A stretch of DNA of 20,267 nucleotides, from assembly GCA_018609965.1 (NCBI GenBank), contig JAHENP010000194.1, positions 1-20,267 of the forward strand, written 5' to 3'. A program made the translations under genes and the position numbers. This DNA is from Haloferacaceae archaeon (GTDB lineage: Archaea; Halobacteriota; Halobacteria; Halobacteriales; Haloferacaceae). The notes under the pieces are model-generated. The model did not search any database. It saw only the letters and a program-made list of their open reading frames with translations, and was not told where the DNA came from. This document shows, piece by piece, positions 683-16,170 of this stretch (position 1 is its first letter; each line of letters starts with the position of its first letter).

Positions 683-755
683 TCGTCTGTCGAGAGGGTG
701 GCGACTCGTCGAAGTCGCAGACTTGTACATCACCTCGAAGACGTTTGTGCTGTTG

Positions 756-1444: not shown

Positions 1445-1489
1445 CGCTCGTCGTAGCTGTCGCCGTATACGTGCGCCACGTCGCCGTGC

Positions 1490-1647
1490 GGGGTCGTCGG
1501 TGACGATGTGGTCGTTGACCATCCGATTGCGGTACTCGAACGTGAGACCACAGTGTGAACACGTCCTTTTTGCCGGGACGGCCACCGTGTGGGCGTGGTC
1601 CACCGCCTGCAGCCGGGACACTGGACGACATGGCCGTCCGTGCTCAT
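1490..1647 (-). pseudogene. Frameshifted small zinc-ribbon protein remnant
   Basis: On the minus strand an ATG at 1647 begins MSTDGHVVQCPGC. The protein-like sequence continues only after a frame change, as AVDHAHTVAVPAKRTCSHCG followed by LTFEYRNRMVNDHIVTDD. The CPGC and CSHC pairs, about 20 residues apart, would form a four-cysteine zinc ribbon of the kind common in tiny haloarchaeal proteins. The shift between the two Cys pairs destroys the reading frame. It sits inside a run of other decayed coding pieces and may be an independent small gene or an insert in the methylase remnant. No function can be assigned. Confidence 0.45.
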
Positions 1648-1679
1648 CTCGACGCTGCGTTTCGATACACACAACGTGT

Positions 1680-2108
1680 TAATAGAGACGGAACTCCTCC
1701 CGCATCTGCTCGGCGGTCGCGTCGTCGTCGACGTACCGGAACGGCTCGATCTCCCCCGTATCACGCACCGCGCTTAGGAAATCTCGCCGGCATGTGCGGC
1801 CTCGAGTTGCGCGAGTCCACCCTCGCTGTTGATGCCAGCGCGGCGCTTGTCGCCGACAAGCGTCGTACTGTCGAACGTGCGGTCCGGCTCCGCGTCGTCG
1901 ACATGGAAGTGGGCCACGAGCGAGTCCATATTCACGTCGTCACCGAACCAGTTTGCGCCGAGGACGTGAAACTGCTCCAGCATGTGCTTCTCAACGAGGT
2001 GTTGGCGGACTGCCGCGTGGTCTTCCCGCAGCAGCGTCTTCGGGGGAACGAACGCCAGTCACCGGTTGCGGTGTCGTCGTACGCAGTGCCGGTGACCTCA
2101 GACGACTG
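1680..2108 (-). pseudogene. Remnant of adenine DNA methylase, middle portion, plus an unassigned fragment
   Basis: Immediately after the LanM1 stop the minus strand reads SSEVTGTAYDDTATGDW. After a frame change it reads AFVPPKTLLREDHAAVRQHL, then VEKHMLEQFHVLGANWFGDD and a stretch ending HAGEIS at a TAA (1774). The PPKTLLRED...VRQHLVEKHMLEQ pattern resembles the region after the catalytic motif of N6-adenine methylases, where the usual form is 'FVVPKTLLR...LRxxLLE...LE'. The NPPY-type catalytic motif itself is not present here. A further frame carries DFLSAVRDTGEIEPFRYV...MREEFRLY before a TAA near 1682; I do not recognise that piece. Position and strand suggest these are the front part of the remnant at 756-1444, truncated where the LanM1 gene ends. 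Confidence 0.5.
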
Positions 2109-2110
2109 TG

Positions 2111-5110
2111 TCACCTCCGCAGGACCAGACACGGTAGTCCTGGTTCGACACACCGGGCGAGCGCGTACCCGACGCCCGTGTACCCGTGTCGGAGCGTCGG
2201 GTCGGCGACACGAACGCCGGCTGTCGGGAGTTCGTACTGCCCGCGCCGAGCGACGCGAGCTAGGAGTCGGTCTGCGAGTTCGCCGGCGGCGGCCACGTCC
2301 CCAGCGGCGACGGAGAGCGTGAGTCGCCCTGCTGTCCCACCTCGGAGTTCGTCCCCACGACGGTCGGTCCTGGACAGATCGAACGAGGCGCTCGGGAGTC
2401 CGGCGTCGAGTCCGATTCGTGTCGCCGCGTCTGGCTGTCGCGTCCAAGACGCAACGGTCTCGGCAGCCGCCTCACGGAAGCGGTCACAGCCGGTCTCACT
2501 CCAAGCGTGCGCGAGGGCGTACACGACCCCGCCCCCGCCCCGGTCGAAGGTTGGCTCCTCACGCTGCCACTCGTCGGCCCGGTTGAGCAGTCGGTCGCCG
2601 AGCGCAACGACTCGCGACCGGACGGACTCGTTGTCCGTCCGTCGAGCAACGCCAGTGGTCGCCGCAACGGCACCGGCGAGCCCGCCGTCGAGAGCGACTG
2701 TCTCCGCGGGAGCCGTCATGTGAGCGAGGTCCACCCCGGCAGACACCACACGACCGTCGGCCAGCAACGAGCCGGCGACGACCAGTCCGTAGCCTGCGGT
2801 CGCAGGGCAGGCGACTGCGTCCGGTGGGGCCGTGACGACCGGATTGAGAAGTGACTGCGTCCGATCACGGTACGCGCCTGTCCCGTCGAGCGTGGCCAGC
2901 GCGGCCCCGAGGACGACGAGACCGGTCTGTCCGCGGAAGAGTCCGACACCGACATCCGTGACAGTCGGGACTGCCGTCGCCGTCTGGTCGAACCGGCTCC
3001 ACACACGCGACCCACCGCCCGGCGTCTCGCCGGCGGCGACGACACGCTCGAACGCCCCCTGTGCGGCGCTCCACGGGGTCGCCTGATGGGCCGTCGCCCC
3101 GTGTGCGGCGCCGCAAGTGTCACCTGCGCACACGTCTGGAGTCTCACTGCCGCTCGTGGTGCCTGTGAGCGGTTCGTCTGTGTCCTCGCTCAGCGACGCG
3201 CGGACGATGGCGACAGCCTCTGCGAGTCGGTCCTCGTCTGCCCGCGCCAGTCGCGCCCGTACCCTGTCGAGTCCTGACATGTTGGCGAGATCATAGACAG
3301 CTACGCCGTCGTGCTTGACGACAGTTGCGTCCGATCGCCCCGTGAACCGAGGCCGGTCGAGCCGTTTCAGCGCGGTTCGTTCAGCCTGCAACACTGCGAG
3401 CGGGCGCCGGCCGGCGGTCCCGTCGAACGCGGGAGCAGCGAGTCGGTCGACGGTGACCCCGAACCGTGCGCCGTCAGCCAACACCTCCGGCTGCCGCAGT
3501 CGGTCGAGCGTCTGACGGTACGACTTGGTCGGTCGGTAGACGAACCGTACGGGCAGGTCGGCGAGGTGGTCGATCAGTGGGGTGTCGCCGGCGGCACGCC
3601 GTGCACACACCGCACGGTGTGTGTGCTCGAACCCATCGACGACCGCGTCGACGTACTCGGATGGACCGGCCGGCTCGCCGTCGACTCGAGGTGCGTCTGC
3701 GGCGGCGTCCGCCTCAGTCCGGGCTACCTCCAGGTGCATCGCGTCTGTTGCGACGGCCCGAACGACCGTCTTTGTCGTCGACTCTGCTACCTCCGGGGTC
3801 GGTGCCGCGGAGGACGCGACCAACGACCGGGCCTGTGTCTCACGACCGGTCTGAATCCGGTACGGCAACGTCGCAGTCGACAGCGGTGTCTCGTCGACGG
3901 CGCGACCGAACCCCCAGTCGTACGGTCGATTGTCGGGATCTAAGTATGGGTGACAGATCGTCTCGGCGTCGACGAGCGCCGGACTCTCGTCGGCGACAAC
4001 CACGTTGTCGGCGTGGCAGTCGGTCGTCTCGGTGAGCCAGGCGAGACAACACAGAGCACCGAACCGACGGTAGTATCGGCGTGTCGTCGACTCACCCGTC
4101 GGTTGAGTCGGCTCCAGCATCGCCGTCCACCCGTAGCCGTCTCGCACGAGACACGTGGGCTGTCGAAGCCGCGGAACGTCGGCGTCGGCTCCGAGGTCGT
4201 CGGCGAGCGCGCCGAGTGCGGCCTCCGGCCGGACGGTACGCGGCTTGTAGACGACACTGACCCCCCGCTCGAACGTGACGCGACAGGTGACGCGCCCGTC
4301 GCCGTGGCTGTCGTCCGTGAGTGGCTGCACGGCAGTCACTGGCCCGAGCGACTCACAGTCGCCGAACTGCTCTGTGAGTGCCCGCCGGTCGTCGTCTAGC
4401 CGTCGAGCGAACGTCACGACGGCGTTCCGCCATTGCCGAACCCGTGTCGAGAGTAGCCGTCCGAACACGGGATACGCCAGACACAGGTCGACGAGTCCGT
4501 CGTTGAACAGGTACGCGAGGAAGTTCTCGTACACCTCCGTCTCTGGGGCACTCTCGTCGGTGACCGGCATCTCACTCGGTGTGGTGTGCTGTTGCCTGGC
4601 GCGATCAAACTGTACACACAGGAGTTCGAGAAACTCTCGTTCGAACCGCGACCGGAACGCAGCTTCGAAGGAGTCGACGGCTGCCTCCGACACGGGGACG
4701 GCCGGCAGTCCGTCACGGGCCGCCGCCGCAAGTGCCGCCGTCAGCGGGCCGAACGGCCGCGGCGACGCGCCGTCGTGGTCGGCCGACGGTGTATACGTCT
4801 TGACCACCTCAGCACCGTGTGGCTCCGGGTCGCGAGCGGTCGCGTCTGCGACAACCGTGTCCAGTCGGTCGACCCACGGAGACACAGTCGTCGCCTGCTC
4901 GGCTGCGGCGGCACGCCGACAGTCCGCCCGGGTAACCCCCAACACGGCGAGCCGTTCGTCGAAGCTGTCGCCGTAGACGGCCGCCCAGTCGTCGACGACT
5001 GGAGTGTCTGACGCGGGCTCGTCGGCGAGTATCTCGGCGTTGATGCGTTCGGGGATCGTCGCACCCTCGGCGGTGAGTCGTCGTCGCTCTGTTGGGGTGA
5101 ACCCAGTCAC
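2111..5110 (-). CDS. Class II lanthipeptide synthetase homologue LanM1: intact dehydratase site, cyclase domain without zinc ligands
   Basis: A 999-residue LanM homologue, the usual length for the family. LanM proteins phosphorylate Ser/Thr of a precursor peptide and eliminate phosphate, then a LanC domain closes thioethers. In the dehydratase domain (about 1-560) the expected residues are present: VYKPR with Lys289, DxHxxN as Asp364/His366/Asn369, DAE as Asp381/Glu383, and RFVYRPT with Arg522 and Thr528. The LanC-like domain (about 690-999) keeps GxxG helical repeats and the C-terminal HGYTGVGYALAR but lacks the catalytic set. The usual AHG is FDRGGGG (855-861), WCHG is not seen around 901-912, and CHG is LRGG (922-925). 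I infer dehydration without zinc-dependent cyclisation. The start is GTG 5110; an in-frame stop lies about 25 codons upstream with no better start. The gene is divergent from leuS. Confidence 0.88.
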   Translation of the reverse strand: MTGFTPTERRRLTAEGATIPERINAEILADEPASDTPVVDDWAAVYGDSFDERLAVLGVTRADCRRAAAAEQATTVSPWVDRLDTVVADATARDPEPHGAEVVKTYTPSADHDGASPRPFGPLTAALAAAARDGLPAVPVSEAAVDSFEAAFRSRFEREFLELLCVQFDRARQQHTTPSEMPVTDESAPETEVYENFLAYLFNDGLVDLCLAYPVFGRLLSTRVRQWRNAVVTFARRLDDDRRALTEQFGDCESLGPVTAVQPLTDDSHGDGRVTCRVTFERGVSVVYKPRTVRPEAALGALADDLGADADVPRLRQPTCLVRDGYGWTAMLEPTQPTGESTTRRYYRRFGALCCLAWLTETTDCHADNVVVADESPALVDAETICHPYLDPDNRPYDWGFGRAVDETPLSTATLPYRIQTGRETQARSLVASSAAPTPEVAESTTKTVVRAVATDAMHLEVARTEADAAADAPRVDGEPAGPSEYVDAVVDGFEHTHRAVCARRAAGDTPLIDHLADLPVRFVYRPTKSYRQTLDRLRQPEVLADGARFGVTVDRLAAPAFDGTAGRRPLAVLQAERTALKRLDRPRFTGRSDATVVKHDGVAVYDLANMSGLDRVRARLARADEDRLAEAVAIVRASLSEDTDEPLTGTTSGSETPDVCAGDTCGAAHGATAHQATPWSAAQGAFERVVAAGETPGGGSRVWSRFDQTATAVPTVTDVGVGLFRGQTGLVVLGAALATLDGTGAYRDRTQSLLNPVVTAPPDAVACPATAGYGLVVAGSLLADGRVVSAGVDLAHMTAPAETVALDGGLAGAVAATTGVARRTDNESVRSRVVALGDRLLNRADEWQREEPTFDRGGGGVVYALAHAWSETGCDRFREAAAETVASWTRQPDAATRIGLDAGLPSASFDLSRTDRRGDELRGGTAGRLTLSVAAGDVAAAGELADRLLARVARRGQYELPTAGVRVADPTLRHGYTGVGYALARCVEPGLPCLVLRR

Positions 5111-5230
5111 TGTGTCGACCTCTGGCGGCTGTCTGTCTGCTTGGTGTCTCTCTGCTTAGCTTGTGTCTCTGTCACACGAGTAGTTATTTAGCCGTCTGTG
5201 TCAAGCTTTTTGGCTGTGCGTCCGCAACTG

Positions 5231-5341
5231 CTATCCGAACACGTCGTAGCTACGGCCGAAGATGCGGTAGCCGTCGGCCTACCCGTTCGTTAACTCGTAG
5301 CGGTAGCTGACCGTGACAGCTGTGACCGTGAGAACGGAAGA
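5231..5341 (-). other. Intergenic coding-like remnant between LanM1 and leuS
   Basis: The roughly 250-nt divergent gap holds no intact gene. On the minus strand one frame reads TVTAVTVSYRYELTNG, an in-frame TAG (5279-5281), ADGYRIFGRSYDVFG, and a final TAG (5231-5233). There is no start codon. It looks like the tail of a lost gene, but no family is recognised. An AT-rich element near 5187-5192 (taaata on the minus strand) may be the TATA box of LanM1, which would leave a leader of roughly 50 nt. Confidence 0.25.
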
Positions 5342-5342
5342 T

Positions 5343-5348
5343 TATAAA
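5343..5348 (+). promoter_or_regulatory. TATA box of the leuS-MFS operon
   Basis: The sequence attataaacc holds TATAAA. Its centre is about 29.5 nt upstream of the GTG at 5375 but only about 17 nt from the ATG at 5363. Haloarchaeal transcription usually starts 25-30 nt after the box centre, so the first codon on a leaderless transcript would be the GTG. Confidence 0.6.
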
Positions 5349-5374
5349 CCTGAAGCTGAAATATGTGTGCTACT

Positions 5375-8038
5375 GTGAATCTGGAGGGAACTGACGAACG
5401 ACGGTTCGACCACCGTGAGGTGGAGTTGAAGTGGCAACGGGCCTGGGAGGCGAACTCAGTGTTCGCTGTCTCCGACGAGGCAGACAACCCGGTGTACGTG
5501 CTTGCGATGTTCCCGTACACCTCCGGGAACCTCCACATGGGACACGTCCGGAACTACACGATCACGGACTCGTACGCGCGATTTGTTCGACTCCGGGAGG
5601 GGTCGGTTCTCCACCCGATGGGGTGGGACGCGTTCGGACTCCCGGCAGAGAACGCCGCCGAGCAACGCGACACAGATCCGCGGGCGTTCACAGAGTCGTG
5701 TATCGAGTCGATGCGCGACCAGCTCCAGCAGATGGGGTTCGGCTACGACTGGCGTCGCGAGGTGAAGACGTGTGATCCGGACTACTACCGGTGGAATCAG
5801 TGGCTGTTCCGCCGATTCTGGGACGCTGGCCTGGTGGAGCGTCAGGAGACGACGCTGAACTGGTGTGACTCCTGTGAGACAGTCCTCGCAGACGAGCAGG
5901 TCGAGGGTGAAGAGCGAAGGTGTTGGCGGTGTGATACTCAGATCCGGGAACGGGAACTTCCCCAGTGGTTCTTCACAATCACGGACTACGCCGACGAACT
6001 GCTCGCGGAGTTAGACCGGCTGGACAACTGGCCGACGAACGTCCGGGAGATGCAGCGCAACTGGATCGGCCGTAAGGAGGGACACGTCCTCGGACTCGAT
6101 ACCGAGCTCCTGGAGGAGAAGACGACGCTTGACGTGTTCACCACGCGGCTGGACACGCTGTACGGCGCGACGTTCGTGGCCGTGTCACCGGACCACCCGA
6201 TGGCCGAACAGTTGGCCGAGGCAGACGAGACGGTCGCAGGTTACCGCGACCGTGCGGCAGCCAGCGACGACGACGGCCTCCCACAGACCAGCGGCGTCAA
6301 GACAGACGCACGCGCGATCAACCCAGCAACCGGTGAGTCCCTGCCGGTATACGTCGCCGACTACGTCTTAGACGACGTGGGTACCGGAGCGATCTACGCC
6401 GTCCCAGCACACGACGAGCGTGACCACGCCTTCGCCGAGGAACACGACATCCCGGTCAAACGGGTCGTCGTGCCCGAAGATGACACCCAAGACACAGCCG
6501 AACCGTTCACAGACGACGGTGTGCTCGTGAACTCCGGTGACCACGACGGGACAGCCAGCGAGACAGCCCGCGAACGGTTCGCGGACACGTTCGACGCCAC
6601 GGAACGGACGGAGTACGACCTCCGTGACTGGGCAATCTCCCGGCAGCGCTACTGGGGAACTCCGATTCCGTTAGTCGAGTGTGACGACTGCGGAACGGTA
6701 CCGGTGCCGGACGACCGGCTCCCGGTCGAACTCCCCGAGTTCGTCCACACGACCGGCAACCCGTTGGACGCGGCCACTGACTGGAAGCAGACGACGTGTC
6801 CGAACTGTGACGGGTCGGCCGTCAGGGAGACGGACACGATGAACACGTTCGTCGGCTCCTCGTGGTACTTCCTGCGGTACGTCTCACCGTCATTGGAGAC
6901 GGCACCGTTCGACCCTGACCGGGCCAGCGACTGGCTCCCGGTCGACCGGTACGTAGGTGGATCAGAGCACGCAGTTATGCACCTGCTGTACGCACGGTTC
7001 TTCACGAAGGTGTTGGAGGATATCGACCTGCTTGACGGCGTCCGTGAGCCGTTCGACCACCTCACGACACAGGGGATGGTGTTGGGCGAGAACGGTGAGA
7101 AGATGTCCAAGAGTAAAGGGAACGGCGTCTCACCGACCGAGCTGGTGGAGGAGTACGGCGCAGACACGGCCCGTACGTTCGTCAGTGAGGCCGCCCACCC
7201 GGAGACGGAGTTCGCTTGGGACCCGGAGGGGGTCGCGAACGCCCACCAGTTCCTGCAGGGAGTCTACCGGTTGACGGCCTCGTACACCGACGGCGACTTC
7301 GAGACGACGAACGCCGACCGGGCTGCAGACGAGTACGTCCGCCGGGTCGTCGACGCGACCGTTGAGGAGGCTGCAAAAAAGTACGACGCGTTCCGGTTCA
7401 ACCACGCTGTCCGGACGGTCCGGCAGTTGGTTTCGCTGCTTCGGCGCTACCGTGACGCCACGACACCGGACGACGAGACGTTCGAACACGGTCTAACAGC
7501 AGTGTTGACGGTCCTGTCGCCTGTCGCACCGCACGTCTGTGAGGAGGCGTGGGCGTCGCTGGGCAACGACTCGATGTTGGCGACCGGAGACTGGCCGGCG
7601 ACAGAGGTCCCCGACAACTACGACATCGAGCGAGCGCTCGTCGACGCCACCCGTGAGGACATCTACAACATCTTAGGGACGGTCGGCATCGACGATCCGC
7701 TGCGGATCGACCTCACCGTCGCGCCGGCGTGGCGCCACCGTGCGTACCGACTCGCCCGTGAGGCCGACGACGACGTGGTCGGGACGGTGATGGCCGACGA
7801 CCAACTCCGGTCGGTCGGGTCGGCGGCTGCCGACTACGCGAAGGAGTTAGCCCCCCAGGCCAGCGCGCTGGAGCCGCAGCTGTCGCCGGAGCAGGAACGG
7901 GAGACGCTGGAGCGCGCACGGTGGCTGCTGGAAGACGAGTTCGACGCGAAAGTGACGGTCACAGCCTCTGACGATCCGACTGGCACGGACGCGAAGCCCG
8001 GTCGCCCAGAGATCGACATCACCCCCACCGATTCGTGA
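5375..8038 (+). CDS. leuS: Leucyl-tRNA synthetase (LeuRS), complete, inside the RiPP island
   Basis: Charges tRNA-Leu with leucine. From GTG 5375 the protein is 887 aa (ATG 5363 would add four residues). In order it shows the class I HMGH signature (54-57) in PYTSGNLHMGHVRNY, a zinc motif NWCDSCE...CWRC, an inserted CP1 editing domain with TTRLDT (256-261) and AVPAHDERDH, and KMSKSKGN (576-583). The anticodon-binding domain follows, then a C-terminal domain ending PGRPEIDITPTDS. All catalytic motifs are intact. In the Thr-rich editing motif TTRPDT, Pro is replaced by Leu. The stop overlaps the MFS start by 4 nt (GTGA), so the two are translationally coupled. Housekeeping leuS is not normally found between lanthipeptide enzymes. 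I infer a second, inhibitor-resistant LeuRS giving self-immunity. The alternative is that this is the only leuS and the cluster inserted around it. Confidence 0.97.
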   Translation: MNLEGTDERRFDHREVELKWQRAWEANSVFAVSDEADNPVYVLAMFPYTSGNLHMGHVRNYTITDSYARFVRLREGSVLHPMGWDAFGLPAENAAEQRDTDPRAFTESCIESMRDQLQQMGFGYDWRREVKTCDPDYYRWNQWLFRRFWDAGLVERQETTLNWCDSCETVLADEQVEGEERRCWRCDTQIRERELPQWFFTITDYADELLAELDRLDNWPTNVREMQRNWIGRKEGHVLGLDTELLEEKTTLDVFTTRLDTLYGATFVAVSPDHPMAEQLAEADETVAGYRDRAAASDDDGLPQTSGVKTDARAINPATGESLPVYVADYVLDDVGTGAIYAVPAHDERDHAFAEEHDIPVKRVVVPEDDTQDTAEPFTDDGVLVNSGDHDGTASETARERFADTFDATERTEYDLRDWAISRQRYWGTPIPLVECDDCGTVPVPDDRLPVELPEFVHTTGNPLDAATDWKQTTCPNCDGSAVRETDTMNTFVGSSWYFLRYVSPSLETAPFDPDRASDWLPVDRYVGGSEHAVMHLLYARFFTKVLEDIDLLDGVREPFDHLTTQGMVLGENGEKMSKSKGNGVSPTELVEEYGADTARTFVSEAAHPETEFAWDPEGVANAHQFLQGVYRLTASYTDGDFETTNADRAADEYVRRVVDATVEEAAKKYDAFRFNHAVRTVRQLVSLLRRYRDATTPDDETFEHGLTAVLTVLSPVAPHVCEEAWASLGNDSMLATGDWPATEVPDNYDIERALVDATREDIYNILGTVGIDDPLRIDLTVAPAWRHRAYRLAREADDDVVGTVMADDQLRSVGSAAADYAKELAPQASALEPQLSPEQERETLERARWLLEDEFDAKVTVTASDDPTGTDAKPGRPEIDITPTDS

Positions 8039-9297
8039 CTGGCACGACGGAGCCGGGCGACGAGAGCCTGTGGCGCAACGCCGGGTTTCGCCGGCTGTTC
8101 GGTGGCCGTCTGGCGACGAACGCGGGCGACAGCGCGTACCTGATCGCGGCGCTGTGGCTCGTGTTCGAACTCACGGAGTCGTCGCTGTACACTGGCGTCG
8201 CCGGCTTTCTGATCCGGGCACCACAGGTCGGGCGGGTGCTCGTCGGACCGATTGTCGACCGACGTCCCGCGAGACAGATCCTGGTGTGGGTGCAACTGCT
8301 CCAAGGAGCGCTCGTCGCCGTCTTGGCTGGAGCGGCTCTGCTCGGGCAACTGTCCGTCTGGCTGTTGTTGTTCGTGTTGCCGTTCGTGTCTGGGCTCGAA
8401 CAGTTCGTCTCTCCGGCCGAGAAGGCGGTGCTCCCCCGTCTCGTCGACGACGACAGACTGGTCCGGGCGAACTCTCTGATGTCGCTGGCGAAAAACGGGA
8501 CCGATGTCGCGTTCCAAGCGGCCAGCGGTGTCGTGCTCGCGGTCGTCGGGGCGACCGCGTTGTTCGCCTTCGACACGGCGACGTTCGTGGTGGCGGCGGT
8601 GTTGTTCGCCGGGGTGAGTGTGCCGACGACCGGTGACGACGGGGTACCGACCGACGACGAAGGCCCGTCGTACAACGAACGACTCCGTACTGGTGTCGCT
8701 TACCTCTCCGGCTCGCGACTCGTCCCGTTTCTGCTCGGGGCGGCAGCCGTCAACTTCGGATCTGGGGCGATGACCGCAGTGTTGCCAGAGCTGGGGGCAC
8801 GTCTGGGGTCGGCAGGCGCCTTCGGCGTGTTGATGGCTGCGCTCGCGGCTGCGACGCTGATCGGCTCCGTGCTAGCGACGGCCTTCGAGAGCGTCCCGTA
8901 CGGACGGGTCGGTGTCACGGCGTTTCTCGTCGCGGGGCTGTCGCTGGTGGGCGCAGTTGTGGTTCCCAGCCTCGCGGGAACCGCCGGCTTCCTGTTTCTC
9001 GCTTTCACCCCCGTGGGTGTTTTCAACGTCCTGTTCTTCTCTGTCGTCCAGTCTGCTGCCGACGCCAGCCTGGTCGGACGGGTGTCTGCGACGGTGTCCA
9101 GCCTGACGGCAGCGACGTTCCCGCTCGGGAGTCTCGTCGGCGGTGCCGCCGCCGACGTGATCGGCGTCAACGCGGTGTTGTACGGCTACGCGGGACTGAT
9201 GCTCCTGTTCGCGGCTGGGTGTCTGATCGACGAGGGTGTCCGGACACTTCCGCCGGTGGCGGAGACAGACGCCGACACACTCGGCTTCGGCAGATGA
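8035..9297 (+). CDS. MFS exporter (EntS/macrolide-efflux-like), likely product efflux
   Basis: A 420-residue major facilitator protein with about 12 hydrophobic segments. It starts with the typical 'W+N..FR+L..G...+N.GD' entry (LWRNAGFRRLFGGRLATNAG). The cytoplasmic loop motif between TM2 and TM3 is GPIVDRRPARQ, and FVSPAEKAVLPRLVDDDRLVRAN matches the 'P...A..P.LV....L..AN' signature of the proton-driven drug/siderophore exporters (enterobactin exporter EntS, macrolide-efflux MefA type). The central loop after TM6 is acidic, as expected in a halophile. The GTG start at 8035 lies inside the leuS stop codon region, so expression depends on leuS translation. It converges with the metallopeptidase gene, leaving 15 nt between stops. 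No ABC transporter or C39 peptidase-type LanT is in the window, so this is the best candidate exporter. Confidence 0.88.
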   Translation: MTGTTEPGDESLWRNAGFRRLFGGRLATNAGDSAYLIAALWLVFELTESSLYTGVAGFLIRAPQVGRVLVGPIVDRRPARQILVWVQLLQGALVAVLAGAALLGQLSVWLLLFVLPFVSGLEQFVSPAEKAVLPRLVDDDRLVRANSLMSLAKNGTDVAFQAASGVVLAVVGATALFAFDTATFVVAAVLFAGVSVPTTGDDGVPTDDEGPSYNERLRTGVAYLSGSRLVPFLLGAAAVNFGSGAMTAVLPELGARLGSAGAFGVLMAALAAATLIGSVLATAFESVPYGRVGVTAFLVAGLSLVGAVVVPSLAGTAGFLFLAFTPVGVFNVLFFSVVQSAADASLVGRVSATVSSLTAATFPLGSLVGGAAADVIGVNAVLYGYAGLMLLFAAGCLIDEGVRTLPPVAETDADTLGFGR

Positions 9298-9312
9298 TCC
9301 CGGCGACACAGT

Positions 9313-10005
9313 TCACCGCGGGAACCGGGTCGTCTCGAATACTCGGTGAGTCGGCGTCGTGAACGCCTCTGGCCAGGGTCGATCCGACGTGATCTCACAG
9401 CCAGCGACGAGTTCGTAGGCGAGCACGTAGCCCGCCCCAGGGACGAACGTGTCGTCCTCGCCGAAGCTGCCGTAGAGAACGCGGCCGTGGAGCGACCGAT
9501 CACGGCTCTCTAGTCGGTCTGCGACGGCTCTCAGCAGCCGTTCGGCGTCGTCGACGGTCGCCCACTCCGTCTGTGGTGGCTGTCGGTCGGTCATCGCCGC
9601 CTCGAAACACTGTGCCAATCCCTCATCGACGAGTCGATCGGCCAGCCGACCGTCGCCGGCGTCCCGACAGACGTGTGCGTACTCGTGGGCGACAGCGTTG
9701 CCCAACGCCTCCCGGTGGCCGTGGACCGTCGTGTCGACGTAGATCCACACCCCATCGGTGGTGGTCACGCCACCGACGCCCGACAGCCGCTCTCGGAACA
9801 GCTGCCGGACGCGCTTGCGACGTGTCTTACTCTCGACGACGTGGTCGTGGTCGGCCAGCGCCGACAGCGGAGCGAGCCTGACGACCAGTCGCTCTGTGAG
9901 CGGAGCCGTCTCGACACACCGTTTCAGCGTCTCTCGGACGGTGTCTGTCAACGACGCCAGCTCCGACTCGGCTGTAACCACTAGATCGAATTCGTCCCCG
10001 TCCAC
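9313..10005 (-). CDS. Predicted HExxH zinc metallopeptidase (DUF2268-like), candidate leader peptidase
   Basis: A soluble protein of about 230 aa with HEYAH (His117, Glu118, His121) followed by VDEGLAQCFEA, whose Glu138 is the expected third ligand. The spacing and 'EGLA.xF' resemble DUF2268-type predicted Zn proteases. There is no signal peptide or TM segment, so it is probably cytoplasmic. The frame is open to 10311, but that would run into LanM2. An ATG at 10059 lies upstream of the shared TATA element, whereas GTG 10005 is about 28 nt downstream of it, the leaderless spacing, so I chose GTG. It is divergent from LanM2. Given the absence of any other LanP or C39 protease, removal of the precursor leader is a reasonable but untested role. 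General proteolysis or immunity are alternatives. Confidence 0.75.
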   Translation of the reverse strand: MDGDEFDLVVTAESELASLTDTVRETLKRCVETAPLTERLVVRLAPLSALADHDHVVESKTRRKRVRQLFRERLSGVGGVTTTDGVWIYVDTTVHGHREALGNAVAHEYAHVCRDAGDGRLADRLVDEGLAQCFEAAMTDRQPPQTEWATVDDAERLLRAVADRLESRDRSLHGRVLYGSFGEDDTFVPGAGYVLAYELVAGCEITSDRPWPEAFTTPTHRVFETTRFPR

Positions 10006-10027
10006 GCAGACCGTGTAACTTGTCCAC

Positions 10028-10036
10028 AAATATAAA
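10028..10036. promoter_or_regulatory. Shared bidirectional TATA element for the metallopeptidase and LanM2
   Basis: The short stretch aaatataaa reads as a TATA box on both strands (tataaa on plus, tttatattt on minus). Its centre is about 30 nt from the LanM2 GTG (10063) and about 28 nt from the metallopeptidase GTG (10005). Both distances fit leaderless transcription, so one AT-rich core could serve both genes and make their expression mutually linked. Confidence 0.55.
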
Positions 10037-10062
10037 GTCGTAGGAAACAGATTCTGCATAGC

Positions 10063-12882
10063 GTGTCCCGGAACGCGGACGGCGACGAGTCTGTGCTCGA
10101 CGGCGCGACGGCCCGCCGAGTCGCCGGGCGGGCGCGGACGCTCCACGAGCGGTTGACGGACACGGAGCCGTCGGTGAGCGACGGCGACTGGACGGCCACG
10201 AGTGAGGTGTTCGACGCTTGGCGCGAACAGTTCGGGGCGGATCGGGTGTTCCAACGGCGGCTCAACGCCATCGGTCTCGACCGCTCGGCCTGCGTCGGCC
10301 GGCTCGCCCACGACAGACTGTCGCCGGACACGGCACTGCCGGAGTGGATCGGCCGACTACGGTCGATCCTGGCGGGCGTGACGGAGCCGACGGCCGTCGA
10401 CGACCGAACAGCTCCGTTCACCGAGATCGCCACGGCAGTGGCGAGACACGCGGCCGGGGAGCTGTCGGACGACGACACGGAGGGGTTGACCGAGGGTGCG
10501 CTCGCGGGGCTACGGCGGTGGCTCCGTGAGCGGATCGAACGGTGGCTGTGGCGGCCACCGACGGCGGCTTTCCGCGAGAACGTCGGCGACGACGACCCGT
10601 CGGCGGTTCGGCCCGCGTTCGTCTCGTTCCTGTTCGACGGCGGGCTCTCCCGGCTGTGTGTCGAGTACCCAGTGTACGCTCGGCTCCTCGTCGCGCAGGT
10701 CGACGACTGGCTGGCGGCAGTGCGGCGGCTCGCAGCCCGGATCTGTGCGGATCGTGAGCGGCTCGCGGCCGCGTTCGAGACGGAGTCACTCGGAGCGGCG
10801 ACGGCAGTCGAACCGACGGCCGCCTCGGAGACGGGTGCGGGCGGCGCCACCCTTCGGGTGTCGTTCGGTGGTGCGCTGTCGGTCGCCTACAAGCCCCGTC
10901 CTGTCGACGCAGATGTCGTCTTCTACGACACCGTCGAGCGTGTGTTCAAGCAGGTCGGATGGAAGGTACGGACGCCGACGGTACTAGACCGTGGGACACA
11001 CGGCTGGGTGGAGTGGATCGATCCGGAGCCGTGTGACGGTGAGACAGCGGTGCAGCGGTACTACACCCGTCTGGGTGGACTAATGTGTATCGCGTATTTC
11101 CTCGGCACACGTGATCTCTCGGCGGTGAACGTCGTCGCGGCTGGGGATCACCCCGTTGTCGTCGACGCCGAGACCGCGGTCACACCGGTCGTCGAGCCGT
11201 CCCGGCGGCCGACACCGACGGGGGTGACCGGCTTCCGCGCCCGGTCGGTGCTGGCGACGCTCCTGTTGCCGTACCGCGTTGGGCACTCGTATGAGGCGGA
11301 CGACGACACAGCTGTCCAGACGGCCGGCGCGGTGAGCGCAGCGACGACGGGGCGTCTAGACGATACCAGACCGACATTCGATGGGCTCGGGACCGGAACA
11401 GTGACCGTCGAACGAACCCGACGGTCGTTGTCGACGGGTGGAGCGACGCCGACCGTGGACGGGGACGCACAGCCGGTCGACTGGTACACGGACGCGGTCG
11501 TTGAGGGGTTCCAGCACGTCCATCGCGCCGTGACCGCCGGCGAAATCTCGGTCTCCCCGGCGATGTTCACGGACACGACTGTCAGGTACGTCTACCGCGG
11601 GAACCAGAACAGGCTCCGGGAGAGGCTCTGCCGGCTCGACGCATTGGCCGACGGAGCCACGTATGGCCGCGTCATGGATCACCTCGCGGTCCCGTTGTCC
11701 GAAGACGGGGTCGCAGAGCCACCCTGGGGTGTTCTCGACGCGGAACGACGCGCACTCGAACGACTCCGGACGCCGCGGTTCGTTGCCGGCGGTGACGGGA
11801 CGGCTGTAACGAGTGCAACCGGTAGACACGCTTTCGAGGCGAGTGAGAGCGGAGTTGCAGCCGCTCGAACACGGATTGCGGCGGCAGACACGGCCGACAG
11901 GCGACGACAGACGGAGCTGATCCGAGGCGCCACAGGGGCGACACCGGCACCCGTCGGTACGCCCGCCCGGTCGCACTCGACGGCTTCGACAGCAGATCTT
12001 CAGGCGGCTGTCGCCCGCCAGGTCGAGGTGCTCCAGACGACGGTAGTTCCGGACGGACACGGGGGGTCGACGTGGGGGTGCCTCTCGCCGGCGTCGCCAG
12101 ACAGACGAGTGGCAGTCAGCAGCCTCGACCACTCGCTGGCCGTCGGCCGGACGGGCGTCGCGGCATTTCTGGCCGCTGCCGGCGTGGTTCTAGACCGCGA
12201 CACGACGACCGCAGTGCGACGGGCGCTGCCGCCCTCAGTTACGACGACGAAGGGGGCCCCGGCGTTCGACTGTCACGACACACTCGCGGTCGCGCGGACG
12301 GCTCGCGCGCTGAGTGTGATCGGTGACCTCGCCGGCGACGTGCAGACCCGCGAGACCGCAGTCGGGGCGGCGCAAGCAGTCGATCCGACCGACGTTCAGA
12401 CGGCCGGCGCGTCGGCGGCCGTCGCAGACGCCCTCGCAACAGTCGCCGAGCTGACGGACACCGCAAGTCTCCGAAAGACGGCAGTCGAGTGTGCTGCCGG
12501 GCTGGAGTCGGCGACGGTGACGCGACGACGGGTGCCGCCGGTCCCGGGTGCCCGCGGCGTCGCGGTCGTCGCCGAGCGGCTCGGTCGTCGGGACGTGCGG
12601 CCATACACCGCCACTGAACCGGCGATCAACCGGACGGACACGGACGACCGGTGGACCGGTAACGCCGCCCGAGTCGCTGGGGCACTGGCGGCGGACGACG
12701 TACCCCAGGCTCGGCGGCTGGCGAGACAGCTGACGACACTCCGCCGACAAGGGGAGTTCCGGTCCGGTGCTCGTACAGAGGCCGTGGCCGATCCGACGTT
12801 CGCCTACGGCCGTGCCGGTATCGGATACACACTCTGTCGAGTTTTGTCTCCGAAGACGATCCCGAGGTTGTTACTTCTGTAG
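10063..12882 (+). CDS. Class II lanthipeptide synthetase homologue LanM2: degenerate cyclase and altered dehydratase site
   Basis: A 939-residue LanM homologue colinear with LanM1 but diverged. The dehydratase domain keeps VAYKPR (Lys277), Asp351, Asn356 and VDAE (Asp368/Glu370). However, the DxHxxN motif is DLSAVN (His replaced by Ser353), and the RxxxRPT motif is RYVYRGN (Thr replaced by Asn514). The LanC-like region keeps weak GxxG repeats (AVGRTGVAAFLAA; AYGRAGIGYTLCR) but has no zinc site. The WCHG region is VPPVPGARG (824-832), CHG is RWTGN (863-867), and AHG is AGASAA. It ends PRLLLL, as LanM proteins do. By inspection it may bind or phosphorylate the peptide but looks unable to do normal elimination plus cyclisation. 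An accessory or scaffold role is inferred. An in-frame stop at 10033 fixes the start near GTG 10063. It lies 57 nt upstream of the precursor gene. Confidence 0.85.
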   Translation: MSRNADGDESVLDGATARRVAGRARTLHERLTDTEPSVSDGDWTATSEVFDAWREQFGADRVFQRRLNAIGLDRSACVGRLAHDRLSPDTALPEWIGRLRSILAGVTEPTAVDDRTAPFTEIATAVARHAAGELSDDDTEGLTEGALAGLRRWLRERIERWLWRPPTAAFRENVGDDDPSAVRPAFVSFLFDGGLSRLCVEYPVYARLLVAQVDDWLAAVRRLAARICADRERLAAAFETESLGAATAVEPTAASETGAGGATLRVSFGGALSVAYKPRPVDADVVFYDTVERVFKQVGWKVRTPTVLDRGTHGWVEWIDPEPCDGETAVQRYYTRLGGLMCIAYFLGTRDLSAVNVVAAGDHPVVVDAETAVTPVVEPSRRPTPTGVTGFRARSVLATLLLPYRVGHSYEADDDTAVQTAGAVSAATTGRLDDTRPTFDGLGTGTVTVERTRRSLSTGGATPTVDGDAQPVDWYTDAVVEGFQHVHRAVTAGEISVSPAMFTDTTVRYVYRGNQNRLRERLCRLDALADGATYGRVMDHLAVPLSEDGVAEPPWGVLDAERRALERLRTPRFVAGGDGTAVTSATGRHAFEASESGVAAARTRIAAADTADRRRQTELIRGATGATPAPVGTPARSHSTASTADLQAAVARQVEVLQTTVVPDGHGGSTWGCLSPASPDRRVAVSSLDHSLAVGRTGVAAFLAAAGVVLDRDTTTAVRRALPPSVTTTKGAPAFDCHDTLAVARTARALSVIGDLAGDVQTRETAVGAAQAVDPTDVQTAGASAAVADALATVAELTDTASLRKTAVECAAGLESATVTRRRVPPVPGARGVAVVAERLGRRDVRPYTATEPAINRTDTDDRWTGNAARVAGALAADDVPQARRLARQLTTLRRQGEFRSGARTEAVADPTFAYGRAGIGYTLCRVLSPKTIPRLLLL

Positions 12883-12906
12883 TGTAACCTGAACATATCC
12901 AAAAAG

Positions 12907-12912
12907 TATATT
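12907..12912 (+). promoter_or_regulatory. TATA box of the precursor-peptide operon
   Basis: The sequence aaaaagtatattac directly follows the LanM2 stop and stands out as A/T-rich. The centre of TATATT is about 30 nt before the ATG at 12940, the same spacing as the LanM2 and leuS promoters in this island. It gives the precursor its own strong-looking leaderless promoter independent of LanM2. Confidence 0.6.
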
Positions 12913-12939
12913 ACGCTACAGATATGATCATGGTATGCA

Positions 12940-13032
12940 ATGGAGTTCGAAATCCAGTCCGCAGATGAGACTCGAAGCGTCGACGAGGAAGAGACGACCG
13001 ACCTGCTGTGCTGCTCGGTCACCTTTTCGTAG
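12940..13032 (+). CDS. RiPP precursor peptide, 30 aa, candidate core LLCCSVTFS
   Basis: A very short ORF between LanM2 and the azoline enzymes. The N-terminal 21 residues (MEFEIQSADETRSV, then DEEETTD) are acidic, rich in Ser/Thr/Glu/Asp and free of Cys, as expected of a leader. The C-terminal nine residues LLCCSVTFS concentrate two adjacent Cys with Ser, Thr and Ser, the residues that YcaO enzymes cyclise and LanM enzymes dehydrate. The ATG at 12940 is the only possible start (in-frame TGA at 12925-12927), and its distance to the TATA box fits a leaderless mRNA. A 6-bp stem hairpin lies 15 nt after the stop. The E1-like and YcaO genes follow on the same strand. There is no GG or GA cleavage site, so the leader/core boundary is uncertain. 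I do not know a named homologue. Confidence 0.72.
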   Translation: MEFEIQSADETRSVDEEETTDLLCCSVTFS

Positions 13033-13047
13033 TAACCGAACTGACAC

Positions 13048-13064
13048 TCGGCCTGATCGGCCGA
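13048..13064 (+). other. Stem-loop after the precursor gene
   Basis: TCGGCC, loop TGATC, GGCCGA form a perfect 6-bp stem 15 nt downstream of the precursor stop and about 105 nt before the next gene. It could stabilise or partially terminate the precursor transcript so that precursor is made in excess over the enzymes. There is no T-tract, which archaeal terminators normally need, so a processing or stability role is more likely. GC-rich DNA also gives such stems by chance. Confidence 0.3.
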
Positions 13065-13168
13065 CGAGACACCTTCTGGACAACCTTGTACGGTCGTGAG
13101 GTTCGACTCGGACCGGCCCTCACGGCTACACTCCAGACCCCGACTCACAACAGGAGACAACTAGCACG

Positions 13169-13987
13169 TTGCACGACTCGACACAGACAGACTCAACTGT
13201 GGTCGTACCGGGCGGACACCTCGAACGACGCGACGGCACCCTGTACTTGGGGACCGTCGACGGATCCTACAAACTCGGAGCCGCTCCAGACGGGGTCGAT
13301 TTCGACGCCGTCGTCGAACGGCTCGCAGACGGCTGTCGACCGGCGGCCGTGACAGATCACGGCGAACGGGCGAGGGCGTTCGTCGAGCAGTTGGTAGAAA
13401 GTGGTGTCGCAGTCGTCGTCAACCGCCGGCCGTCGGCGGTCGACACGGCAGCCGTCTCCGCGTTGTCACGATACCACCGGCGCCCGGCGGCGCTGTACGA
13501 GACGGCAGTCGACACGACAGTCGCCGTCGTCGGTGATCTCGCCGTCGACCAGGTGCTCCGTTCGTTCGGTGTCGCCGAGACGACAGACGACCCCGCGGCT
13601 GCCGACGTGGCAGTCAGTGGCGTCCCAGAGCTGGGCGACCGATTCACCACAGACTCCGCGACACCGTACGTTCCCACGTTCGACGACGAGAAGTCGGTGT
13701 GTGTCGGTCCGGTCGTGTCACCGGAGACTGTTTGTGTCGACTGTTACCGCCGTCGTCGGGCGTCGACGCGCGAGAATCCGGCACGGTTTCGACAGAGCCG
13801 CGGACTCTCGGAGTCTGTAGGTCCACTCGCCGGCTCTTTCGCCGGTCTCGCAGCTCTCGGGGTGATCTGTAGTCAGCGCTCCGGCGGTGGACCGCTCGCC
13901 ACGCGCCAGGTGACCGTCGATCCCGTCTCACTTGAGACCGAGACACACGGCGTCTTCTCCGTTCCGGGGTGCGAGAGCTGTGATTGA
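13169..13987 (+). CDS. E1-like TOMM cyclodehydratase partner (leader-binding, Ocin-ThiF-like)
   Basis: A 272-aa protein of the E1/ThiF-like group that presents precursor peptides to YcaO. Residues about 10-85 look like a PqqD-type RiPP recognition element: short beta strands (VVVPGGHLERRDGTLYLG) then helices ending EQLVESGVAVVV. The middle has a reduced nucleotide-fold-like part (TVAVVGDLAVDQVL). The zinc site typical of these proteins is present as two CxxC pairs, CVDC (189-192) and CESC (268-271, at the very C-terminus). It is shorter than the classical SagC-type fusion. The start TTG 13169 follows an AGGAG at 13152-13156; GTG 13199 is an alternative. No ATG or GTG lies between the upstream stop (13097) and TTG. 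It overlaps the ycaO start by 8 nt. Confidence 0.8.
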   Translation: MHDSTQTDSTVVVPGGHLERRDGTLYLGTVDGSYKLGAAPDGVDFDAVVERLADGCRPAAVTDHGERARAFVEQLVESGVAVVVNRRPSAVDTAAVSALSRYHRRPAALYETAVDTTVAVVGDLAVDQVLRSFGVAETTDDPAAADVAVSGVPELGDRFTTDSATPYVPTFDDEKSVCVGPVVSPETVCVDCYRRRRASTRENPARFRQSRGLSESVGPLAGSFAGLAALGVICSQRSGGGPLATRQVTVDPVSLETETHGVFSVPGCESCD

Positions 13988-15248
13988 CTGTCTCCGTTCG
14001 GAGTCCGACCCGACGGCGAATCACGACCTGGCTGTCAGTGACCGCACGGGCATCGTCACCCGGACGGTCGAGACCGATCTCTCGCAGTTGTACGAGGGAC
14101 ACGTCGCAGTTCGATCGGTGATCTCGGACCTGACGGCACTGTTCGACTCTGAGGATCAAGCGACGACCGGCGGCGCCGCAGTCGCGCGCAGTCCACGGGC
14201 GGCACGACACCGGGCGATCGGTGAGGCGCTGGAGCGCTACTCTATCGAGCGACCACCCCCGGCGGTCGTCACTGGGACGGTCGAGACGGTCGACGGGGCA
14301 CTTTGGTGGGAGCCACACACCGACGCCCAGTACGACGACGACGAGCTGTCCTGCCGCCGGCTCACCGCCGACGCCGAACTCGACTGGGTGCCTGTCACCC
14401 ACCTCGAAGACGGGACACACCGCCACGTTCCGGCCAGCACAGTGTATCTCGGTGTGTCCGAGCACGGCCCGACTGCCGAGGTGACGAGCACCGGTGCGGC
14501 CTGTCACACGACGCTCCCGCGTGCAGTCTTGGGGGGGCTGTTGGAGGTAGTTGAGCGCGACGCGACAGTCGTCTCTCTCCTCAACGGACTCCAGCGACCG
14601 CGGCTCCCAGCGCCCGTCGTCGCCGACGCTGCTCCCGACCGGTTCGCCGTACTGTCTGACGCTGGACTGGATGTCACCGTCGTTGACGTGACCTCTGATC
14701 TCGCCGTCCCTGTCTACTTCGCGTACGCAACCGACGGGACGTGGCTCGGTGTCGGTGCCAGCTGTCACCCTCGTGCCGACACTGCTGTCTCGGAGTCGCT
14801 CGAAGAGGCGATGCACACGTACTACAGCCTGCGGGAGGTGTACGATGTCGCACCCGACGCGGTGGCCGACCCGTCGTCGTTGGAGACGCTGAACGATCAC
14901 CTGTTCTACTACCAGGGGGAGACCCAGTCGACGGTGCTCAACCGTGTGCCCGACGAGACGACGACGCTCCGTCCCGACCTCTGTGACCGGCAGGCGACGC
15001 CACCGGAGCAACTCGCGGCTGTCGTCGAGGCGCTCTCTGAGGTCGATATCGACGCGTACTTCCACGAGACAACGTCCAACGATCTCCAGAAGATCGGTGT
15101 CAGAGCAGTCGTTGTCGCCGCGCCGACGCTCGTCGACATCAACGCGCGGTACGCTGCCAGACAGCTCGGACGTGACAGACTTTCGACCGTCCCGGAGCGG
15201 TTGGGCTACGAAGCTGGGCTAATCGACGACCCACACCCGATGCCGTGA
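13980..15248 (+). CDS. YcaO-domain azoline synthetase (cyclodehydratase)
   Basis: YcaO enzymes use ATP to phosphorylate a peptide-bond oxygen so that Cys/Ser/Thr side chains close into thiazolines or oxazolines. From GTG 13980 the protein has 422 aa. It carries the conserved helix motifs RAIGEALERYS (ATP/Mg region, GEALERYS at 81-88) and LGGLLEVVERDA (EVVERDA at 188-194), a third acidic helix SESLEEAMHTYYSLREV, and the C-terminal proline signature PHPMP, which marks azoline-forming YcaOs with an E1-like partner. The frame is open from TTG 13932, but GTG 13980 sits across the E1 stop and implies translational coupling. No SagB-type FMN dehydrogenase is present in the window, so the rings would remain azolines unless an oxidase is elsewhere. 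Its stop is 1 nt from the end of the convergent kinase remnant. Confidence 0.9.
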   Translation: MIDCLRSESDPTANHDLAVSDRTGIVTRTVETDLSQLYEGHVAVRSVISDLTALFDSEDQATTGGAAVARSPRAARHRAIGEALERYSIERPPPAVVTGTVETVDGALWWEPHTDAQYDDDELSCRRLTADAELDWVPVTHLEDGTHRHVPASTVYLGVSEHGPTAEVTSTGAACHTTLPRAVLGGLLEVVERDATVVSLLNGLQRPRLPAPVVADAAPDRFAVLSDAGLDVTVVDVTSDLAVPVYFAYATDGTWLGVGASCHPRADTAVSESLEEAMHTYYSLREVYDVAPDAVADPSSLETLNDHLFYYQGETQSTVLNRVPDETTTLRPDLCDRQATPPEQLAAVVEALSEVDIDAYFHETTSNDLQKIGVRAVVVAAPTLVDINARYAARQLGRDRLSTVPERLGYEAGLIDDPHPMP

Positions 15249-15249
15249 G

Positions 15250-15938
15250 TCAAAACGGCGGCGTGCGTCGCTTTATCCTCCCGCCCCTGTCGACGACGGG
15301 CTCTGCCACGAACTCGTCGGTCGCGTGCGGCAGTGACACCTCGAAAACGGTGCCGTCGAACCAGTTTCTATCAATTCCACGTCGCCGCCGGTCTGGTTAC
15401 AGAGCACGTCCACGATAGAGGCCGTAGTTGTGGTCGCCAGTGCTGCTCTCCGGCGGCTTGAACAGGTCGCCGTGGTCCCCGGCGCCGATCTCCGGGCCGT
15501 CGGCGGCGACGCACAGCTGGACGGTCTCGTCGTCGACGACCACAAACAGCCGCACGTCGGCACCGGGCCGCCGTGTTCCACCGCGTCCGAGAGAGAATTG
15601 CCGATCATCCAGCCGACGATGTTCTCGCTGCGGACGCGCAGTCTCTTGGGCACGTCGGTCGGTGACCGGCCTCCCCGTACCACTCTTTTTAACTGTTCAG
15701 ACAACAGATCAGGAAACCCAGAGTCGACCTCAGTCTGTTGTTTCGGCAGGAGTTGGAACTCCTCACGGCCGGGACGGGCCAGATCGTACCACAGAATTGA
15801 TTCAAAGATGCCGGCGTCGAACGCCTGTTCGAGCGTAAGTTTCCCCAGATTGGACGATGGACCCATCACCCACAGCTGGACCGTCTCGGGAGTCGCATTT
15901 GTGTCGTCTGGCTTGGCGGCCGAGTCGACGATGTTCTG
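15250..15938 (-). pseudogene. Frameshifted histidine-kinase-type ATPase (HATPase) protein
   Basis: The minus strand carries a GHKL ATPase broken across frames. The N-terminal part (QLWVMGPSSNLGKLTLEQAF...) is of unrecognised type and has no start codon after the TAA upstream of 15938, except GTG/ATG within LWVMGP. Then come the N-box NSLSDAVEHGG, a shift near 15550, GADVRLFVVVDDETVQLC with the G1-like ADGPEI, and GDHNYGLY. A shift near 15405 leads to IVDVLCNQTGGDVELIE, and one near 15372 to NWFDGTVFEVSLPHATDEF and a stop at 15250. The pieces align in the order expected for a kinase C-terminus (G2-like GLY, then GGDV...F.V.LP). Three shifts argue for decay rather than a single error, though sequencing error is not excluded. 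Confidence 0.7.
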
Positions 15939-16022
15939 AAAAATAGGATTAAAATATTAATTGACTATTATAAAATGTTTGCTTAATACTTTACTTTGAA
16001 TTTATTGTCTTTATTTACTTCT
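15939..16022. other. AT-rich intergenic patch
   Basis: About 85 nt made almost entirely of A and T, including attataaaatg and tttattgtctttattt, in DNA otherwise well over 60% GC. It lies between the kinase remnant and the purQ 3' end. I find no ORF, inverted repeat or tRNA in it. It may be an old promoter, an insertion scar or the edge of the island. The rest of the gap to 16170 is ordinary GC-rich sequence with nothing recognisable. Confidence 0.5.
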
Positions 16023-16170
16023 CCCCGTCTCGTACAGCGTCGGTTACAACAGAACACGTTCCCCCGAAAGACGCGTCCTTCACAGCGGTTCAACTAACCC
16101 ACCGGTGCGGCTGCGAAGCTCGTTGAAATTCGAGAGTAAACGAATAAAGAGGCCGTACTCCCAGTAACTG

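Follow-up and report, generated by a model that had tools for sequence, protein, structure and literature searches.

What could a haloarchaeon produce from a locus in which lanthipeptide-type synthetases stand beside azoline-forming enzymes? The question is raised by a Haloferacaceae archaeon (GenBank assembly GCA_018609965.1, contig JAHENP010000194.1), from which we analysed a stretch of 20,267 nucleotides, termed here the window. The source assembly (G000) is a draft of 2.6 Mb in 361 contigs and is 74% complete; the window is its contig C194. Between positions 2111 and 15248, the window combines two homologues of class II lanthipeptide synthetases (LanM1 and LanM2), a leucyl-tRNA synthetase (LeuRS), a transporter of the major facilitator superfamily (MFS), a DUF2268 metallopeptidase, a short precursor peptide, an E1-like C-protein of the thiazole/oxazole-modified microcin (TOMM) type and a YcaO cyclodehydratase. 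This gene list, drawn up in an earlier sequence-only reading of the DNA, was borne out in full when gene families were assigned by Pfam and NCBIfam profile searches. We propose, with a probability of roughly 45%, that the genes form a transferable cassette for a ribosomally synthesised and post-translationally modified peptide (RiPP) of the dehydrazole type, that the product would act on LeuRS, and that the LeuRS of the cassette (LeuRS-B) would be the resistant copy.

The cassette is one unit that is found at different genomic sites. The E1-like gene occurs in two of the four genomes of the genus (G000 and G251), and in G251 the order LanM1, LeuRS, MFS, DUF2268, LanM2, precursor, E1 and YcaO is that of the window, in the same relative orientation. 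Protein identity between the two copies is 67% for LanM1, 82% for LeuRS, 77% for MFS, 64% for DUF2268, 66% for LanM2, 66-70% for the E1-like protein (aligned in two pieces), 72% for YcaO and 93% for the precursor. The two-contig assembly of G251 carries the cassette on contig C2, whereas the genes that flank it in the window (an M28 peptidase, purQ, a geranylgeranyl reductase and carS) are together on contig C1, where the M28 peptidase and purQ genes are about 550 bp apart, as opposed to 15.5 kb in the window. Relative to the G251 chromosome, the insert extends from position 686 to 16170. Since the same gene order recurs at another location in G251, and the site corresponding to that of the window is without an insert there, the block occupies different sites as a unit; no terminal repeat was readable when each end of the insert was searched apart.

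The sequence-only reading had also considered that the LanM genes and the YcaO operon might be independent, unlinked loci, adjacent here by chance. Most haloarchaeal LanMs indeed work without YcaO, as YcaO and E1 genes lie nearby in only three of the 50 LanM regions examined, namely those of the window, G251 and G031 but none of the other 47 (some of the regions being at contig ends). The order kept at another genomic place in G251, together with the separate pairing of LanM and YcaO in G031, leaves chance adjacency a probability close to nil; it is refuted by the G251 synteny and was rejected. In a search over 5.8 billion proteins, with scoring of the 7997 candidates that had the most words in common with the query, two E1-like proteins were recovered: the window's own and one with 66% identity. 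For LanM1, the best protein matches outside the cassette show about 35% identity or less over the aligned length, with one short local match of 43%.

The azoline-forming part contains the elements by which TOMM loci are recognised, i.e., a YcaO protein, an E1-like C-protein and a nearby precursor with Cys, Ser and Thr residues. The YcaO gene (13932..15248, plus strand, start codon uncertain) encodes a SagD-like protein with a PHPMP C-terminus, which matches PF02624 (E=1e-49) above the cut-off of that family. The E1-like gene (13169..13987, plus strand) codes for two CxxC pairs. Both proteins stay under the curated cut-offs of their NCBIfam profiles: YcaO scores 200 bits with TIGR03604 (cut-off 219), and the E1-like protein, with 36.0 bits for TIGR03882, is just below the required 36.9. 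The E1-like protein is presumed to be the leader-binding partner of YcaO. The pair is shared with haloarchaeal TOMM loci of the SagB-E1-YcaO kind (e.g., L194 of Halovivax asiaticus); the window differs from them in that LanMs are present, that its E1 and YcaO proteins are 19-27% identical to their aligned counterparts, and that no homologue of SagB, the type of dehydrogenase that accompanies YcaO in dehydrazole clusters, was found in G000 or G251 (one query, with G000 74% complete).

A YcaO might also install a backbone thioamide instead of azolines, as known for the archaeal enzyme that thioamidates methyl-coenzyme M reductase (PMC9953058). No TfuA match was found among the cassette genes searched. 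Moreover, the E1-like C-protein partner and the PHPMP C-terminus, which we take to be a sign of cyclodehydratases, fit azoline formation, and a thioamide therefore seems highly improbable in this case.

The putative substrate is encoded by a small open reading frame (ORF) between the LanM2 and E1 genes (12940..13032, plus strand), which specifies a peptide of 30 amino acids, MEFEIQSADETRSVDEEETTDLLCCSVTFS. Its G251 counterpart is identical in 28 of 30 positions, the differences being E2D, Q6E and one additional C-terminal Asn, and the 30 shared codons display 10 synonymous and two non-synonymous changes. Among 49 small intergenic ORFs in the cassette region, the precursor is the only convincing one that is conserved in G251; of the other matches, two lie across the precursor in a different frame, and the remaining three are weak with a biased composition. 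Beyond G251, the retrieved loci contained no convincing relative. Like class II lanthipeptide precursors, the peptide carries a core with Ser/Thr and Cys residues, which likely ends in LLCCSVTFS (the core boundary is assumed). The calculated [M+H]+ is 3414.455 for the entire precursor and 972.453 for the core LLCCSVTFS; loss of two or five waters from the core would give 936.432 or 882.400, respectively.

The two LanMs were compared with CylM, the positions being counted by hand along alignments (R506 and T512 were placed from the motif). LanM1 (2111..5110, minus strand) is a class II LanM-type dehydratase according to DUF4135 (E=2e-85) and TIGR03897 (352.8 bits, thus exceeding the cut-off of 304). 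Examination of its dehydration residues shows that all are intact: D267, H269, K289, D364, H366, N369, D381, R522 and T528 correspond to CylM D252, H254, K274, D347, H349, N352, D364, R506 and T512, respectively. LanM2 (10063..12882, plus strand; DUF4135 E=2e-66; TIGR03897 280.8 bits, below the same cut-off) is its sister in a tree of haloarchaeal LanMs only (support 100/99). It keeps K277, D351, N356, D368 and R508; its DxH motif is changed to SET, the catalytic-loop His (position 353) to Ser, and RPT to RGN. In CylM, D252, H254, R506 and T512 serve phosphate elimination. This step is impaired when D252, H254 or T512 is replaced by Ala, being abolished in T512A and merely slower in H254A; no modification of the substrate is seen with D347A and D364A (PMC4550811). 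LanM2 is thus without three of the four elimination residues (the equivalents of D252, H254 and T512), and its G251 orthologue shows matching losses. Judging from these substitutions, LanM2 may be a kinase without elimination activity or a helper pseudo-enzyme.

In both LanM1 and LanM2 the two zinc motifs of the cyclase domain are gone and the zinc ligands absent, and the Pfam family LANC_like is not matched by either protein at E 0.001. The AlphaFold2 model of LanM1 (mean predicted local distance difference test, pLDDT, 81.2) has LicM2 and CylM as best PDB matches, and its C-terminal part resembles LanC-like barrels. Dehydrazole clusters are characterised by a LanM dehydratase fused to a cyclase domain of class III (LanKC) type; in LanM1, the TIGR03897 match extends into the cyclase part, the LanKC match is weak (E=0.003), and the model resembles both class II and class III enzymes. 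With the zinc ligands absent from both LanMs, and three elimination residues from LanM2, the designation as lanthipeptide machinery in the strict sense is not supported.

To place these losses, LanMs were searched for in 392 genomes, drawn from the larger order. As two LanM candidates were scored per genome, all LanM numbers are minimum values (the search passed over LanM2 in both G000 and G251); at least 39 of the 392 genomes gave a match. The zinc count and the tree comprise 44 full-length LanMs, 13 of 57 LanM-like ORFs or pieces having been dropped as shorter than 930 amino acids; among the dropped C-terminal pieces, L123, L125 and L129 show zinc motifs and L128 does not. The motifs WCxG and CCG/CHG are kept in 35 of the 44 proteins and absent in nine. 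All five YcaO-linked LanMs are without zinc ligands, as compared to four of 39 unlinked ones (Fisher p=1.2e-4 when counted by sequence, the sequences being related; p=0.013 in a lineage-level table in which the 35 zinc-bearing sequences are still counted singly). Because the LanM sequences are related, the weight of this association lies in two lineages. The second is represented by G031, where a zinc-less LanM, a SagB-like nitroreductase, a ThiF/E1 protein and YcaO are encoded in a row, making it the second haloarchaeal locus with LanM and TOMM genes. Its candidate precursor, found by eye and then translated, is Cys-free and Thr-rich and ends in VFHLTTPTTVTTVTTTTVFL. The G031 LanM belongs to a different clade from LanM1 and LanM2, and the well-supported branches of this haloarchaeal tree force at least three changes of zinc label.

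Zinc-less LanMs without YcaO, each near two similar Thr-rich precursors and an ABC transporter, were observed in G318 (L085:5651-6087) and G024 (L088:5532-5965). One member of each pair is Cys-free and ends in LTTWTTVTTTTTTGT(V/A)D; the other ends in ITTTTTVTVTTTTSAPFSCSC, with SCSC at its terminus. These loci are candidates for poly-dehydrobutyrine peptides. Zinc loss thus tends to accompany either YcaO or Thr-rich, mostly Cys-poor cores, as would be expected for LanMs that serve mainly in dehydration.

The LeuRS, which the sequence-only reading had merely listed, is probably the most informative gene of the cassette. It is an extra copy: the gene (5363..8038, plus strand) codes for a bacterial-type enzyme (TIGR00396 leuS_bact, 847 bits) with HMGH and KMSKS motifs, and an archaeal LeuRS-A is encoded elsewhere, above the cut-off, in all three genus members tested (G000, G251 and G299). 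LeuRS-B accompanies the cluster in G000 and G251; the two members that have no E1 gene, G299 and G392 (the latter a 450-contig draft), are without LeuRS-B as well. A putative TATA-like promoter element, GATTATAAA, was spotted by eye upstream of leuS (5340..5349, plus strand), and the same element precedes leuS in G251. Haloarchaeal B-form LeuRS enzymes have been described, and differential antibiotic sensitivity was named as a possible reason for the two types (PMC3436685). The duplication, the co-inheritance with the cluster and the precedent of agrocin 84, in which a LeuRS is known as producer immunity (PMC5059758), make the cluster LeuRS a candidate self-resistance enzyme.

The unity of the cassette, its gene families, the conservation of the precursor, the motif losses and the LeuRS duplication are shown by the data; from these we infer the chemistry with its order of steps, the parts played by peptidase and exporter, and the target. 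In the pathway that we envisage, the E1-like protein would bind the leader and present the 30-residue precursor to YcaO, which would convert Cys24 and Cys25, and perhaps a Ser or Thr, into azolines. These would probably remain thiazolines, because no SagB-type dehydrogenase was found. LanM1 would phosphorylate the Ser and Thr residues of the tail (S26, T28 and S30) and eliminate the phosphate, yielding dehydroalanine or dehydrobutyrine; lanthionines would not be formed, since the cyclase zinc site is absent. LanM2, the diverged sister, would hold the substrate as a pseudo-enzyme or phosphorylate it without elimination. The acidic leader would be cut off by the DUF2268 zinc metallopeptidase (9313..10062, minus strand), whose HEYAH motif is kept in both window and G251. 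This gene had been correctly recognised in the sequence-only reading, with the exception of its start, which is most likely at 10062; in G251, a stop codon breaks the longer frame that would begin at 10311. The MFS transporter (8035..9297, plus strand), assigned by profile match and kept in G251, would serve as exporter. The product is likely linear and short and would contain both thiazolines and dehydroamino acids, in line with the earlier prediction of azolines and dehydroamino acids in one peptide; it would inhibit LeuRS, against which the extra bacterial-type copy would protect the producer. A more detailed version, i.e., an archaeal LeuRS-inhibiting, dehydrazole-like RiPP for which LanM2 phosphorylates, LanM1 completes the dehydration, YcaO adds the azolines and LeuRS-B gives immunity, we consider unlikely to be correct in all its parts.

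Several observations weigh against this proposal, in its chemistry as well as in its target. The enzyme order of carnazolamide is not applicable, because the precursor has no Ser or Thr directly before any Cys, whereas CcaM, the zinc-free LanM beside YcaO in that pathway, acts on the Ser that precedes an azole (PMC10676384), and because SagB was not found with the one query; with no dehydrogenase found, the enzymology of that system cannot be transferred. The hybrid is rare, since no LanM was detected in 53 YcaO loci from named records (flanks up to 10 kb), either by tblastn with three haloarchaeal LanM queries or by a hidden Markov model of haloarchaeal LanMs, which recovered known LanMs and which divergent bacterial LanMs could escape. 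These loci came from a scan with a YcaO alignment; the window YcaO as query gave no relatives in the named genomes. The four unlinked LanMs without zinc ligands also count here, and the AlphaFold2 model of the E1-like protein (pLDDT 38.6) was unusable and was not used.

Moreover, the class III synthetases are zinc-free and still cyclise, so that zinc loss does not exclude a lanthionine. The product could then be a true lanthipeptide with azolines, in which Cys24 or Cys25 closes a zinc-independent ring with a dehydrated residue, leaving the other residues to YcaO. The LanC-like barrel retained in the LanM1 model would suit such a ring, and in the archaeal peptide sallan a thioether links Cys1 and Ser5 of CTRYSF (PMC12144867), a haloarchaeal precedent for a bond between an N-terminal Cys and a Ser further along. 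The absence from both LanMs of zinc motifs that most full-length haloarchaeal LanMs keep argues in the opposite direction, as do the Cys-free candidate core of G031 and carnazolamide, which is made with CcaM and described as having no rings (PMC10676384). We consider lanthionine formation doubtful.

Regarding the target, the correlation between LeuRS-B and the cluster covers four genomes of one genus. LeuRS-B is an ordinary enzyme in haloarchaea, some of which (e.g., G004 and G066) gave no LeuRS-A above the cut-off, so that nothing marks the cluster copy as specially resistant. In a tree, the cluster LeuRS-B joins those of G066, G124 and G233 with a support of 94/96, separately from the two remaining LeuRS-B clades, and the 16-kb stretches around these three genes gave no match to the queried LanM, YcaO, E1, SagB, MFS and DUF2268. 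The LeuRS might simply hitchhike, or it might provide Leu-tRNA for modification of the peptide; either role would affect one part of the proposal. LeuRS-B genes have moved among haloarchaea, with neighbourhoods that are not conserved (PMC3436685), the cluster copy has normal-looking catalytic motifs, and some other haloarchaea apparently have LeuRS-B as their sole LeuRS. Against these roles, the gene lies inside the block, is overlapped by the MFS gene by 4 nt in both genomes, and accompanies the other cassette genes at the new site; in addition, none of the cassette genes was recognised as coding for a LanB/PEARL-like enzyme that uses tRNA. These roles together are a serious possibility, if short of even odds, and we retain self-resistance as the preferred reading of the gene.

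The LeuRS-B genes at L142-L144 (G066, G124 and G233) constitute, with the cluster copy, a third haloarchaeal LeuRS-B clade. In G024, a LeuRS-B of another clade (L088:16494-19430) is about 4.7 kb from the zinc-less LanM. At L023:5122-10589 (contig C4 of G008), an intact archaeal LeuRS gene, with OCD and thermosome genes next to it, is bordered by a broken E1-like gene and a fragment of YcaO. The broken E1 is the match of highest identity to the window E1 outside the genus (50% over 53 residues), and the second by E-value. This is the second case in which genes of these kinds accompany a LeuRS, perhaps in decayed or rearranged form.

Although the earlier reading held that lanthipeptide and azoline machineries are normally separate, hybrids are already described in bacteria: about 50 clusters with a zinc-less LanM and YcaO are known as dehydrazoles, and carnazolamide contains dehydroamino acids and azoles and is reported without lanthionine (PMC10676384). 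Like the cca cluster of that study, the window has a DUF4135 LanM with a zinc-free cyclase domain beside YcaO (PMC10676384), and the product predicted here, from genes alone, likewise has dehydroamino acids and azol(in)es and no lanthionine. The window differs in its archaeal host, its two LanMs (one degenerate), its stand-alone E1-like protein and its LeuRS and MFS genes; no dehydrogenase, radical S-adenosylmethionine epimerase or methyltransferase was seen in it. In addition, its precursor is 30 residues long, as opposed to one with a long leader, and the Ser/Thr residues follow the Cys residues instead of preceding them. The cassette is best filed as an archaeal, LeuRS-carrying, dual-LanM variant of the dehydrazole kind; full membership is not claimed, because the dehydrogenase of these clusters was not found. 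The word "archaea" does not occur in the main text of the dehydrazole paper (PMC10676384). The view that no archaeal pathway with this gene set has been described survives, as no archaeal LanM-YcaO cluster appeared in the literature searched, from which supplements and subscription papers were outside the scope.

Agrocin 84, the precedent for LeuRS as immunity to a LeuRS-inhibiting antibiotic, is reportedly a nucleotide analogue and not a RiPP. The corresponding immunity in the window is suggested by analogy with that system (PMC5059758). Goadsporin combines azoles and dehydroalanine in one peptide, as predicted for the window, by means of a tRNA-dependent split LanB instead of a LanM (PMC10676384, PMC4603692). 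Among haloarchaea, Haloferax mediterranei has separate LanM and YcaO genes (PMC9953058), and the haloazolisins represent another YcaO type (PMC4603692). Alignment of the window LanMs with those of haloarchaeal class II lanthipeptides (PMC12144867, PMC10105419) spans their length. In our set, zinc ligands are kept by most haloarchaeal LanMs (35 of 44), and 47 of 50 LanM regions are without a nearby YcaO; the window differs in both respects.

To our knowledge, the molecular targets of archaeal RiPPs are largely unknown. The cassette points to one, LeuRS, and would, if the proposal is true, represent an archaeal RiPP whose predicted target is readable from its cluster. It also extends LanM-YcaO hybrids to archaea, and the loss of the zinc site in at least two YcaO-linked haloarchaeal lineages provides a natural test case for the conversion of LanMs into pure dehydratases. 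Finally, it suggests why two LeuRS types may be maintained in some haloarchaea, a point that earlier work did not settle (PMC3436685).

Downstream of YcaO, the window contains a piece of a histidine-kinase-type ATPase (15321-15657, minus strand), assigned by reading its translation by eye; it is frame-broken in the window and open in G251 (L013:17537-17869), and is possibly a former regulator of the cassette that has been lost. Scans of the window for tRNAs and Rfam families gave no match. The genus contains further LanMs: L094 (G000, contig C307) and L106 (G299, C1) keep the zinc ligands, and L113 (G251, C1) is without both the zinc ligands and the ATP-site Lys. At L118:11456-12048 (G174), a LanM with partial zinc loss has three short ORFs in its vicinity that resemble precursors and end in SCWSSSC(N/GA), together with a small ORF that resembles an acyl carrier protein.

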